DNA from: an uncultured Ruminococcus sp.
Lineage (GTDB): Bacteria > Bacillota > Clostridia > Oscillospirales > Acutalibacteraceae
NCBI GenBank assembly: GCA_905233145.1
Contig: CAJODI010000004.1
Location: 1-34,780 of the forward strand
Reading direction: 5' to 3'
DNA length: 34,780 bases
The position numbers and the translations under genes were made by a program. Position 1 is the stretch's first letter, and each line of letters starts with the position of its first letter. Shown here one piece after another: positions 1-23,042 of the stretch. The notes below the pieces were generated by a model. It was not told the origin of the DNA. It did no database searches and saw only the letters and a list, made by a program, of their open reading frames with translations.

Positions 1-6
1 CTCTCT

Positions 7-167
7 TATACTAAATTCAAATAAAAAACAGACAATCTTTGCGGTCTATTTTCCGCAATACTTCGTTGTCGTCCTTGCAAGGCGACAGTCTTGCGGCGTC
101 CTTCGCCTCGTCTTGCGAAAAATATCCTCGCAAATCTTTGTCCACTTTTTATCTGAGATTAGTATTA
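7..167. repeat. Imperfect palindromic element (~160 bp), MITE-like
   Basis: The left end TACTAAATTCAAATAAAAAA and the reverse complement of the right end share the ordered blocks TACTAA, ATAAAAA, GACAA, TTTGCG, TATTTT and CGCAA. The left arm (7-72) recurs in inverted orientation at 3632-3697. The element lies directly upstream of the antitoxin promoter. No coding capacity was recognised. Confidence 0.7.
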
Positions 168-221
168 GCGGCGTAACAGAGATAACCTTTGCAGCAAATA
201 AATACGATCAGATAAAAACGC

Positions 222-250
222 TTGACATAATTAATCAATTTCTTTATAAT
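222..250 (+). promoter_or_regulatory. Consensus sigma-A promoter of the type III antitoxin RNA
   Basis: TTGACA (222-227) and TATAAT (245-250) are both perfect matches with exactly 17 bp between them. The predicted start is near 257, just upstream of the 35-nt repeats. Such a strong promoter fits a type III antitoxin RNA, which must be made in excess over its toxin. Confidence 0.9.
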
Positions 251-282
251 AATAATGAAAAACGAAGATTGCTCGTTTTATT

Positions 283-378
283 GGTGCTCACCACCATAAA
301 GCGCAGACGTAGTTATCGGTGCTCACCGCCGCAAAGTGCAGACGTAGTTATCGGTGCTCACCGCCGCAAAGTGCAGAC
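283..378 (+). repeat. Tandem 35-nt repeats of the antitoxin RNA (2.75 copies)
   Basis: The unit begins GGTGCTCACCGCCGCAAAGT and ends CAGACGTAGTTATC. Copy 2 (318-352) and the first 26 nt of copy 3 (353-378) are identical. Copy 1 (283-317) differs at three or four positions. There are no unique spacers between copies, so this is not CRISPR. Confidence 0.95.
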
Positions 379-393
379 TGTAAGCAATCACGG

Positions 394-424
394 GAGGAAG
401 GAGACAGCTCTCCTTCCTCTTTTT
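394..424 (+). terminator. Intrinsic terminator between antitoxin RNA and toxin gene
   Basis: An 11-bp perfect stem (394-404 with 409-419) closes a CAGC loop and is followed by five T residues. Its place between repeats and toxin gene is a hallmark of type III loci, where it sets the RNA-to-toxin ratio. Confidence 0.92.
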
Positions 425-504
425 GTTATCATTCGGTGTATGTAATAATGCTCATTCAAGGGTAAACAACGCAAAATAAGCAACGTTGGTTTAAGGAGAT
501 CTGT

Positions 505-1017
505 ATGATTTTTGAACCTAATACAAAAACAGATTTTTTCTATGTCGATGGTGAATATATTGACTATCTAAAAAGGACCGAAGAAAACAGCCGCAGCTTT
601 ACATGTGTGCCAAACGTGCATTACTGGAACACAAACAAATTTGTTTTTGGTGCGGTTTTGCTGATTAACGAAATACCTTATTTTGTTCCGGTCACATCTT
701 ATTCCAAACCACAGCAGGATTTGCTGTTGCTACGAGATAAAAAGGACAATAAAATTTTGAGTTCATTACGATTTAACTATATGATACCCGTTCCGATTAA
801 ATGCTTGCGTAAGCTTAACATTGCCGAGCTTTCAACAGCACAAAGCAGAGCACACGCCTCAAAGGAATTGGCATTTTGCCGTCGAAACCGTGACAAAATT
901 TATAAGCGTGCAAAGAATACATATATGCGTGTTTTAAGCGGAAAATACCCCGAATTAACAAGGAACAGCTGTGATTTCCGATTGTTGGAGGAAGCGTATA
1001 CTTTATATTCTAAATAA
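505..1017 (+). CDS. toxN: Type III toxin-antitoxin system ToxN/AbiQ family endoribonuclease
   Basis: This 170-aa protein has the length and layout of ToxN/AbiQ toxins. These are sequence-specific endoribonucleases that cleave cellular and phage mRNA and process their own repeat RNA. Visible family features are an N-terminal FFYVDGEYIDYLKR segment, a core strand pair GAVLLINEIPYFVPVTS, T64-S65 followed by K68 (family active-site pattern T-S-x-K, here with one extra residue), FNYMIPVP near residue 90, and a basic C-terminal helix region ending in FRLLEEAY. The start has a strong AAGGAG 8 nt upstream. The gene sits behind the repeat RNA and terminator, the canonical order. It is AT-rich compared with the housekeeping genes nearby, which suggests horizontal acquisition. 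Abortive-infection activity is a reasonable inference from the family but is not shown here. Confidence 0.87.
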   Translation: MIFEPNTKTDFFYVDGEYIDYLKRTEENSRSFTCVPNVHYWNTNKFVFGAVLLINEIPYFVPVTSYSKPQQDLLLLRDKKDNKILSSLRFNYMIPVPIKCLRKLNIAELSTAQSRAHASKELAFCRRNRDKIYKRAKNTYMRVLSGKYPELTRNSCDFRLLEEAYTLYSK

Positions 1018-1092
1018 AGCTTGCGAAGCAAATTTAGCTCCATCGGAATTTAGCGCAGCGAAAGCTGCATTTAGCTCGCGCAGCGAATTTAG
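1018..1092. repeat. Short intergenic repeats around AATTTAGC
   Basis: Between the convergent toxN and HAD-like genes, the motif GCGAAGCAAATTTAGC and its variants recur about four times, with small hairpins such as GCAGC-GAAA-GCTGC. It could act as a weak bidirectional terminator. No clear U-tract was found. Confidence 0.5.
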
Positions 1093-1746
1093 CTACAATA
1101 CCGACAGCTTTGTTTGTATCTCATGCGCCGAGTTAAGATAGGCTCTGCAATAGTACCTTTTTGCCTCTTCCTTGCTCCTAAAGCCCCAGCCGTAAAGCGC
1201 GGCGGCAAAATCCACTCCGGCTTCTCTCGCGCCCTCGGCGTCAACATAGCTGTCTCCCACAACAATAGCTTCATCTTTCGGAGTTTTCAGGGTTTCACAT
1301 GCCTGCAAAATCATGTCGCGCTTATTCATATATGTATCAACGTCGGTCGCGCACACAAAATCAAAAAGCTTGCCGATTTCAGGATAGGTTGTGAGCATGT
1401 TGGTGATATATTTTCTGTGCTGCTGCGTAGCGATCGCAAGCTTGCAGCCGTTTTGCTTGAGACCTTCAAGGCATTCCTGAACGCCGCTATAGAACATGAG
1501 CATTTCTTCGCCCTTCATGGAATAAAGCTTGCTGTAATTGTTTACAGCATATTCAATTTCGTCCTCCTTCATTCCGTAGAGCCTGCGAAAGCCCTGTTCA
1601 AGCGGAATTCCGATCACGCCGTAGAGCGACTCGTGCGGAACCGGAGAATACCCCATAGAAAGCGCGGTTGTATTAAAGCAGAACAGAATCCCGGGCGAGG
1701 TATCTACAATAGTTCCCTCAAATCCAAAAATAAATAGCTTTTTCAT
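1093..1746 (-). CDS. HAD-superfamily protein with degenerate catalytic motif I
   Basis: This 217-aa protein has the phosphoglycolate-phosphatase-like HAD fold. It keeps motif II (IATQQH, T107), a plausible motif III Lys (NKRD, K142) and motif IV (VVGDSYVDAEGA, D165 and D169). Motif I, normally DxDGT, reads FIFGFEGTIVDT: the nucleophilic Asp is Gly8 and the general acid/base Asp is Glu10. HAD hydrolases need the first Asp to form the phospho-aspartyl intermediate, so the protein is predicted to be inactive as a phosphatase. It may act as a binding or regulatory pseudoenzyme. The RBS GGGGG lies just upstream of ATG. The other HAD gene in this window (18372-19046) keeps an intact DLDGT. A sequencing error is unlikely because two separate codons are changed in an intact frame. 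Confidence 0.85.
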   Translation of the reverse strand: MKKLFIFGFEGTIVDTSPGILFCFNTTALSMGYSPVPHESLYGVIGIPLEQGFRRLYGMKEDEIEYAVNNYSKLYSMKGEEMLMFYSGVQECLEGLKQNGCKLAIATQQHRKYITNMLTTYPEIGKLFDFVCATDVDTYMNKRDMILQACETLKTPKDEAIVVGDSYVDAEGAREAGVDFAAALYGWGFRSKEEAKRYYCRAYLNSAHEIQTKLSVL

Positions 1747-4499: not shown

Positions 4500-4818
4500 G
4501 GCACCACCGAACACTTCACACATTTTGTTAGTGTGAAGTTTGGAGTGTGGAGTGTGGAGTTATTGTCGTGAAGATTGAATTAATCTATAAAAAACGTTTT
4601 TATTCCCGACCGGATAAATATGGATATAGTATTCCTTTTTAGGTCGTCCTAAGACTGTTTTCGGAAAACTATAGCAATAATAATACAGTCGGGCAGAAAA
4701 GTCTTTTCCAAATCAACCTATCTGCCCGACCGAAACTCCACACTAAAAAACTTCGCTGCCGCTATGACTAAAATTTGACTGCGCAATCCGCACAAACGAA
4801 TTATGCGGTATTGCCATA
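4497..4818. mobile_element. MITE-like element, left copy flanking sigG
   Basis: The element runs from TAAGGCACCACCGAACACTT to GAATTATGCGGTATTGCCAT, which are imperfect inverted terminal repeats. Internal modules are a GTGTGAAG hairpin, 7-bp AGTGTGG tandem units near 4544-4561, and a hairpin around CGGTCGGGCAG. It has no open reading frame. Its reverse complement is nearly identical over long stretches to 5799-6150 on the other side of sigG. Confidence 0.8.
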
Positions 4819-5685: not shown

Positions 5686-5798
5686 TTTAGTGTGGAGTGT
5701 GGAGTGTGGAGTTTCGGTCGGGCAGAAAGGTTTTGTTTTGAAAAAACGTTCGTGCCCGGTTGTATTAATATTGCCATAGTTTTCTAAAACAAAAGTTA
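5686..5798. repeat. MITE-derived fragment with AGTGTGG microsatellite
   Basis: It starts with about three AGTGTGG units (5688-5713), then a degenerate TCGGTCGGGCAGAAA...CGTGCCCGG hairpin and an ATTGCCATAGTTTTC block. These are modules shared with the full element that immediately follows. It appears to be a truncated copy. Confidence 0.65.
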
Positions 5799-6150
5799 TA
5801 TAGGCAATACCGCATAATTCCGGTGCACGGATTGCGCAGTCAAATTTTAGTCATAGCGGCAGCGAAGTTTTTTAGTGTGGAGTGTGGAGTGTGGAGTGTG
5901 CAGTTTCGGTCGGGCAGATAGGTTGATTTGGAAAAGACTTTTCTGCCCGACTGTATTATTATTGCTATAGCTTTCCGAAAACAGTCTTAGGACGACCTAA
6001 AAAGGAATACTATATCCATATTTATCCAGTCGGGAATAAAAACGTTTTTTATAGATTAATTCAATCTTCACGACAATAACTCCACACTCCACACTCCACA
6101 CTCCAAACTTCACACTAACAAAATGTGTGAATTGTGCGGTGTTGCCTATA
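5799..6150. mobile_element. MITE-like element, right copy flanking sigG (inverted)
   Basis: The element is bounded by TAGGCAATACCGCATAATTC at the left and GAATTGTGCGGTGTTGCCTA at the right. It carries a GTCATAGCGGCAGCGAAG block, AGTGTGG tandem units near 5876-5902, the CGGTCGGGCAGA hairpin and a second tandem array near 6080-6110. The central ~150 bp match the reverse complement of the left copy almost base for base. Confidence 0.8.
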
Positions 6151-6299: not shown

Positions 6300-6410
6300 A
6301 AAGACTATAGCAATAGTAATACATTCGGGAGCAAAGGTGTTTTTTAGATAAATTCTATCTTCACGACCGAAACTCCACACTCCACACTCCAAACTCCACA
6401 CTAATAAGGT
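6300..6410. repeat. MITE-derived fragment next to the glgB 3' end
   Basis: It contains ACTATAGCAATAGTAATACA, an ATTCTATCTTCACGACC block and inverted AGTGTGG units (ACTCCACACTCCACAC), in the same module order as the inner part of the sigG-flanking elements but without the terminal repeats. Confidence 0.65.
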
Positions 6411-19691: not shown

Positions 19692-19912
19692 TAGCCCGAA
19701 AATGCCGACATATGGAAATAACGTTTTTGGAAACGTTGGTTTTAATCAGCCCGAAAATGCCGTCATCTAAAAATTACGTTTTTGGAAACGTTGATTTTAA
19801 TCAGCCCGAAAATGCCAACATATAGAAATAACGTTTTGGAAACGTTGGTTTTAATCAGCCCGAAAATACCAACATATCGAAATAACGTTTTTGGAAACGT
19901 TAGATTTTAAAA
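19692..19912 (+). repeat. Four-unit tandem array of 54-55 bp hairpin repeats
   Basis: Units begin at about 19692, 19747, 19802 and 19856 with AGCCCGAAAATGCC. Each contains AACGTTTTTGGAAACGTT, a 7-bp stem with a 4-nt loop, followed by GGTTTTAATC. Copies differ by a few bases and one has a one-base deletion in the T run. A lone diverged unit sits at about 14205-14240. Each stem is followed by a short T run, so the array may be stacked weak terminators after queH. Confidence 0.85.
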
Positions 19913-22449: not shown

Positions 22450-22500
22450 CAGTATTTTTTTATTTTTTATTGTATAATGTGCCGTAGGGTGCCGGTGGGG

Positions 22501-22974
22501 TGCCGGTGGGCACTTCTATCCGCCTTTTGAAAAGTTTTGCTTTACAATAAGCATCATCAACGGCGGGGCAAAAGTCGAGATATTTGTAACCTCAAAATAA
22601 CATCACGGTTTTTGTCGGGCATCCGTCACATATCATTAATCCGCACTTTATTCCCGTTGTAAAAAATGCCGGTGGGCACTTCTATCCGCGTGCCGGTGGG
22701 CACTTCTATCCGCCTTTTGAAAAGTTTTGCTTTACAATAAGCATCATCAACGGCGGGGCAAAAGTCGATATATTTATAACCTCAAAATAACACCGCGGTT
22801 TTTGTCGGGTATCCGCCACATATCATTAATCCGCACTTTATCCTCGACTTAAAAGAATCTTCAACGGCGGGGCAAAGGTCGATATATTTGTAACCTCAAA
22901 ATAACATCGCGGTTTTTGTCGGGTATCCGCCACATATCATCAATCCGCACTTTATCCTCGACTTAAAAGAATCT
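22501..22974 (+). repeat. Three direct repeats upstream of nrdD
   Basis: Unit A (22501-22672) and unit B (22691-22860) are about 170 bp each, 190 bp apart and nearly identical. Unit C (22861-22974) repeats only the last ~114 bp, from TCAACGGCGGGGCAAA. Units A and B open with TGCCGGTGGGCACTTCTATC, a GTGCC-GGTG-GGCAC hairpin, which also occurs alone at about 22673 and in part at 22480-22500. No coding frame or known riboswitch was recognised. Confidence 0.8.
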
Positions 22975-23042
22975 TCACGACAATAACTCCACACTCCACA
23001 CTCCAAACTTCACACTAATAAGAATTGTGCGGTGCTGCCTTA
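22975..23042. repeat. MITE-derived right-end fragment
   Basis: TCTTCACGACAATAACTCCA, inverted AGTGTGG units, AACTTCACACTAATAAG and GAATTGTGCGGTGCTGCCTT match the right half of the element at 5799-6150. Confidence 0.75.

Follow-up and report, generated by a model that had tools for sequence, protein, structure and literature searches.

Positions 222..1017 of the analysed window (the whole stretch of 34,780 nt, from a contig of an uncultured Ruminococcus sp.) almost certainly constitute a chromosomal toxin-antitoxin system of the ToxIN class (type III). The leader and the trailer of its predicted antitoxin RNA carry complementary hexamers, which very probably form a genuine helix around the antitoxin units (referred to below as the outer helix); both statements, taken jointly, are still highly probable. 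The type III (ToxIN/AbiQ-like) assignment had been proposed in an earlier reading of the DNA (the original prediction), and is supported by the family profile, the predicted fold, the gene order and the covarying pseudoknot units. The description of the locus given there stands in its parts; the leader-trailer helix was not mentioned in it.

Organization of the locus and the toxin

The following features were distinguished:

222..250, + strand: sigma-70-type promoter TTGACA-17-TATAAT (12/12 consensus bases)
260..278, + strand: 5' leader hairpin, stem AAACGA (260-265)/TCGTTT (273-278), 7-nt loop (266-272); from sequence, fold and covariation
267..272, + strand: 5' strand of the outer helix, GATTGC, within the leader-hairpin loop; from pairing over 18 loci
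278..312, + strand: antitoxin repeat 1, pseudoknot core 282-306, stem 1 282-286/292-296; from repeat search and unit scan
313..347, + strand: antitoxin repeat 2, pseudoknot core 317-341; from repeat search and pattern scan
348..382, + strand: antitoxin repeat 3, pseudoknot core 352-376, with the trailer in place of a linker; from repeat search and pattern scan
384..389, + strand: 3' strand of the outer helix, GCAATC, in the trailer between the last repeat and the terminator; from pairing over 18 loci
392..425, + strand: intrinsic terminator between antitoxin and toxin (13 pairs, then a T-run)
493..498, + strand: ribosome-binding site (RBS) AAGGAG; from sequence
505..1017, + strand: toxN, encoding a 170-aa ToxN/AbiQ-family toxin, predicted endoribonuclease

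The succession of promoter, tandem nucleotide repeats, terminator and toxin ORF is the order used as a criterion in PMC5086642 and PMC8860590, and every part of the series named in the original prediction, from promoter and repeats through terminator and RBS to the ORF, is present at 222..1017. The promoter, described there as perfect, indeed matches the consensus throughout; the terminator, described as an 11-bp hairpin, has arms of 11 nt (394-404/409-419) that are 100% complementary; and the AAGGAG site was found at its place. For the RNA spanning 251-430, the predicted fold is more stable than that of each of 200 dinucleotide shuffles (z -3.66). A comparison of window positions 1-1100 with Rfam gave three matches, none of them convincing (best E 2.5), which is weakly informative, because the ToxI_Pa locus (L102) likewise lacks an Rfam match at E <= 0.1. 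Masking of the RBS by the 3' arm of the terminator (404-415 vs 493-504, 92% complementary over 12 nt) was considered and set aside, as its conservation in relatives was not apparent by eye and a long fold leaves the pairing unused.

The 170-aa protein, originally described as ToxN/AbiQ-like, matches the family profile PF13958 with 106.8 bits (cut-off 25), and its predicted fold is that of ToxN. The motif T-S-Y-S-K was read correctly in the original prediction (residues 64-68), but it is not the oddity it was taken for: the corresponding stretch of AbiQ is S-S-Y-K-K, and the pattern [ST]-S-[YFKN]-x-[KRH] is seen in 21 of 23 rows of this toxin type.

A tree of 71 ToxN proteins places the window within a 12-row clade, A1 (support 99/95), which holds none of the seven plasmid and phage references L101-L107 (relatives are given by L numbers). 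A second group, A2, comprises L008, L009, L011, L012, L015, L020 and L026 (90/60), and forms a clade with L018 and L021 (100/97). The start codons of the relatives' ORFs were chosen automatically, and some N-termini are unsure.

Of the active-site residues K33, T52, S53 and K55 (PMC8860590 numbering), the first three are kept in the alignment as K45, T64 and S65; K55, W57, Y110 and Q117 of the E. coli enzyme ToxN_Ec are replaced by S67, P69, S114 and E121. According to PMC8860590, K55A, W57F and Q117A abolished the toxicity of ToxN_Ec, so that S67, P69 and E121 occupy sensitive places, and a toxin inactivated or weakened by the replacement of RNA-binding and catalytic residues might be suspected. 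Against this, the equivalents of K33, T52 and S53 are retained, K68 adjoins S67, and a glutamate at the Q117 place together with the missing W57 tryptophan is common to A1 and A2 relatives that have full-length ORFs and arrays; we consider a defective toxin improbable.

Antitoxin units and their predicted action

Tandem Repeats Finder (TRF) reports an array with a period of 35 and 2.9 copies at 278-378, and a repeat search resolves it into three 35-nt copies (278-312, 313-347 and 348-382) with 100, 86 and 74% identity to the first. Since the three copies align at these values, the cores are taken to be complete in all three, with divergence in the last linker only; the original prediction had counted 2.75 repeats of 35 nt.

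The original prediction had named an H-type pseudoknot as the fold to look for in the repeat unit. As far as sequence can tell, such a fold is present: stem 1 shows compensation, and both stems lie in register in many relatives (pattern scan). Compensation in stem 1 was followed in 30 units, coming from 12 of the 14 loci supplied, that have at least 4 of 5 pairs. Pair 1 is TA in 23 units, CG in 4, TG in 1 and unpaired in 2; pair 4 is CG in 11, TA in 7, TG in 5, AT in 4, GC in 2 and unpaired in 1, the two unpaired cases at pair 1 and the two GC cases at pair 4 being units of L020 in a shifted register. The filter, which also demands a C, misses units (it passes none of L015 or L026 and one of three in L012), and a failure rate of stem 1 is not measurable from these counts. 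Within the window's own array, pair 1 of stem 1 goes from U-A to C-G. In stem 2, changes on both sides were seen by eye in some relatives, as in L049, with ACUGC/GCAGU and ACCGC/GCGGU. In the window's subgroup, the stem 2 loop CUCAC is invariant and the middle stem 2 pair is broken in unit 1, so that stem 2 has no support from covariation there.

The promoter would give a short RNA of three pseudoknot units, ending at the terminator, and occasional read-through of the terminator would yield ToxN. To judge from the family, ToxN would cut the RNA between the units, and the units would keep the enzyme inactive, probably in a ring built of three toxin and three RNA molecules; if antitoxin synthesis stopped, the RNA would decay and free ToxN would cut cellular RNA.

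The helix between leader and trailer

A hairpin directly before unit 1 was seen by eye in most loci of this toxin type (L028 and L052 are the exceptions). Its inner 4 bp (262-265/273-276 in the window) are paired in 18 of 18 loci (72/72 cells), with changes on both sides at all four positions, and the leader folded by itself gives -4.7 kcal/mol. In these 18 loci, the window included, the hairpin loop carries G[AG]UU[AG]C (GAAUAC in L026), and the complement of this hexamer follows the last unit. For this group, whose members were initially chosen by eye because they carry the motif, and whose strands were located by the motif pattern, 106 of 108 cells of the loop-trailer helix are paired, in comparison with 6-45% in slid registers, and both-side changes occur at positions 2 and 5 of 6. 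The two mismatches fall in L026 and L056 (one each), both of which have broken toxin ORFs; a broken toxin does not always go with a broken helix, however, as the toxin is broken and the helix intact in L024 and L053. Antitoxin units are likewise kept beside broken toxin ORFs in L076; these five loci (L024, L026, L053, L056 and L076) may hold solitary antitoxins.

When the eight distinct strand combinations were shuffled, which ignores relatedness, a fraction of 0.0011 reached the observed pairing, and the number of positions with both-side changes was not unusual (for the same eight combinations, 0.22). At position 2, the A-U/G-C change is found in both sub-branches (in L020 of A2 and in L049 of A1, as well as in L056, which is absent from the tree), and the G-C/A-U change at position 5 sets the window's subgroup apart; mapped onto the toxin tree by eye, these would amount to about three independent double changes.

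The longest leader-trailer match reaches at least 6 nt in 17 of the 18 group loci, whereas 22 of 23 loci outside the group do not exceed 5 nt, and these include ToxIN_Pa, AbiQ and an E. coli ToxIN. In L026 it is only 5 nt and lies elsewhere than the helix site, while the 8-nt match of L006 is at a different place in the leader; outside the group, L021 shows a match of 8 nt in which its own terminator arm takes part. The outer helix is absent from L018 and L021, sister to sub-branch A2. This comparison covers the loci that remained after setting aside near copies (L005, L047, L072-L074, L076 and L108), L002 (no array found), L050 (upstream region masked as N), L019 and L022 (array unclear) and distant loci.

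The locus might be an ordinary ToxIN system whose leader-trailer match is an inherited coincidence without function. Six-base matches are short, and although the single-locus shuffle gives p <0.05 in 11 of 18 loci, it gives p >=0.05 in the other 7, with values up to 0.47. The double compensatory changes at a fixed place across 18 loci argue against coincidence, as does the scarcity of matches above 5 nt in the other loci, and we regard it as very improbable. About as improbable is a DNA-level inverted repeat, for example a site bordering the array that serves binding or recombination, in place of an RNA helix. Covariation by itself cannot separate DNA from RNA, and L003-L007 resemble the window within the cassette only; yet all 18 loci have the 5' copy in the loop of a hairpin that covaries and belongs to the predicted transcript, and the array between the two copies ranges from 28 to 136 nt.

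In the window, the hairpin stem (262-265/273-276), 1 loop nt, the 6-bp helix (267-272/384-389) and 0 nt follow one another, a spacing compatible with an H-type pseudoknot. Leader and trailer thus have, by their predicted pairing, the layout of such a pseudoknot, the last loop of which would hold the three antitoxin units. In the window's branch, the loop of the leader hairpin would accordingly pair with the trailer before the terminator to form a pseudoknot around the three units.

Under nested-only folding, the window's outer helix has a probability of 1.00, 9 of 18 loci reach at least 0.5, and the hairpin is preferred in L007, L020 and L026. Because the favoured structure differs between loci, a folding switch agrees with these results no less than a standing knot does; in such a switch, the leader hairpin would form first and be opened by the trailer, thereby setting terminator read-through and toxin dose. 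In the window, 2 nt separate the end of the trailer strand from the 13-pair stem of the terminator, and in nested folding hairpin and outer helix exclude each other, which favours this reading. On the other side, an unsystematic look noticed no conserved competing anti-terminator, and the lengths of the loops would permit hairpin and outer helix at the same time; we find the switch doubtful, though worth keeping in mind.

As to the role of the standing pseudoknot, the likeliest is that the outer helix would join the ends of the unprocessed precursor, slow its decay and offer three units at once to ToxN, a proposal with a reasonable chance, if below even, of being correct. It is favoured because the characterised ToxIN ring has three units (as described in PMC5086642 and PMC8860590) and because both ends of the RNA take part in the helix. 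The degradation of type III antitoxin RNA, and hence toxin release, is called not completely clear in a 2016 review (PMC5086642); a conserved helix joining the precursor ends would give a testable handle on both.

The known systems differ in this respect. ToxIN_Pa (pECA1039, L102) and the E. coli ToxIN (L105 for the DNA, 7d8o for the structure, which may not be one cluster) have by eye no leader hairpin, their first repeat following closely after the -10 box, and their leader-trailer matches are 5 and 4 nt, respectively. AbiQ/antiQ (pSRQ900, L101), whose toxin shares 33% identity with that of the window, also lacks the hairpin by eye, and its longest match is 3 nt. In Clostridiales and Leptotrichia, structured candidate RNAs that precede ToxN (HMP2_3156, HMP2_5421 and HMP2_14852) were proposed as ToxI in PMC8040213, the main text of which uses the word "pseudoknot" 0 times; these RNAs may overlap with the leader-trailer helix. 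In the accessible text of PMC5086642, PMC8860590, PMC5772629, PMC4627078, PMC10853763, PMC8040213 and PMC13356809, neither a leader hairpin nor leader-trailer pairing is mentioned. The type of system is already known; within this searchable literature, we did not see the enclosing leader-trailer helix described.

Linkers, distribution and genomic neighbourhood

The linkers of the window, AGACGTAGTTATCG, contain no A-run, unlike the A-rich sites cut by characterised ToxN enzymes, as given in PMC5086642 and PMC8860590; ToxIN_Bt (4ato) has an A-rich cleavage site according to the former, and the GAAAUU linker of ToxIN_Pa and E. coli ToxIN is A-rich as well. Among 32 rows of the wider toxin type, the longest A-run in the linker is 3 in L016 and L052 and 1-2 in 29 rows (1 in the window), L021 being unsplit. 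Of six other loci, five reach A-runs of 3-5, and the sixth, L101, was anchored with its A-rich stretch outside the "linker". Since UUAU precedes each of the window's three units, we predict, by analogy with E. coli GAA/AU, that the window ToxN cuts at GUU/AU. UUAU is not universal in the group (UUCU in L009, GGAU in L048). A new specificity group, as suggested in the original prediction, is plausible from the sequences, because clade A1 is free of the references L101-L107 and the window linkers are free of A-runs. Whether A-rich cutting holds throughout the family could be examined in a ToxN branch whose linkers are poor in A. The combined picture, in which the outer pseudoknot closes the precursor into a ring around the three inner ones and so pre-forms or times the three-fold toxin-RNA ring, with a ToxN that has exchanged its A-rich cleavage site for a U-rich one such as GUU/AU, is tentative and on the unlikely side.

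Relatives were collected as 44 loci in assembled genome contigs, 30 of which have a 34-39-nt tandem array at most 700 nt upstream (TRF). With the own genome counted, a toxin match at E <= 0.001 occurs in 20 of 398 genomes of the family, 32 of 391 of the class and 15 of 398 of the phylum, and the own genome has one ToxN and one antitoxin array. The phylum search gave no new member of the 18-locus group by eye; in the families of G459 (9 genomes), G590 (70) and G494 (349), 3, 3 and 5 genomes have a match, the sole group member (by eye) belonging to the genus of L012/L015, already counted. The toxin matches 41 of 72,556 plasmid records and 2 of 50,697 annotated phage records (at 39.9 and 29.0%). 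Scanned with the toxin, viral contigs yielded 20 pattern stretches, without any relative among them, and two exact repeat patterns, covering those antitoxin forms only, gave 0 stretches each. ToxN relatives with arrays on mobile elements are present in Clostridioides phage ES-S-0107-01 (L104, 40%; an unannotated phage record) and on a 3.8-kb plasmid of E. faecium (L103, 34%).

DNA similarity between the window and L003 covers 221-428 and 491-1015, with no flank. In 11 loci of the same genus with the HAD gene that neighbours the cassette in the window (the best listed, from 60 genomes searched), ToxN is absent from up to 1.5 kb on each side, and the HAD-ligase pair is kept in 8 of 11 among the matches listed. 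The cassette is therefore accessory, because its similarity lacks flanks and HAD loci of the same genus lack ToxN. L002 shares the downstream genes with the window, and not the array: it encodes a 94% identical toxin followed by the same genes, no array was seen in the 478 nt (1-478) that reach to the contig edge, and the DNA upstream of the RBS is different, which may reflect an orphan toxin, a displaced antitoxin or an assembly fault. In L003, the cassette promoter is preceded, at a distance of about 90 nt, by a tRNA gene (2612-2685).

Several other repeats were observed in the window: (i) a dispersed repeat of about 160 bp at 1-168, inside which the contig edge falls (positions 1-222 used as a query give 49 matches in the own genome, itself included); (ii) tandem arrays at 19693-19910 and 22500-22977, with four 55-nt units and with overlapping 190- and 114-nt units, respectively; and (iii) short tandem runs of the heptamers AGTGTGG or ACTCCAC at 4530-4560, 5689-5712, 5874-5904, 6079-6116, 6372-6402 and 22986-23016.
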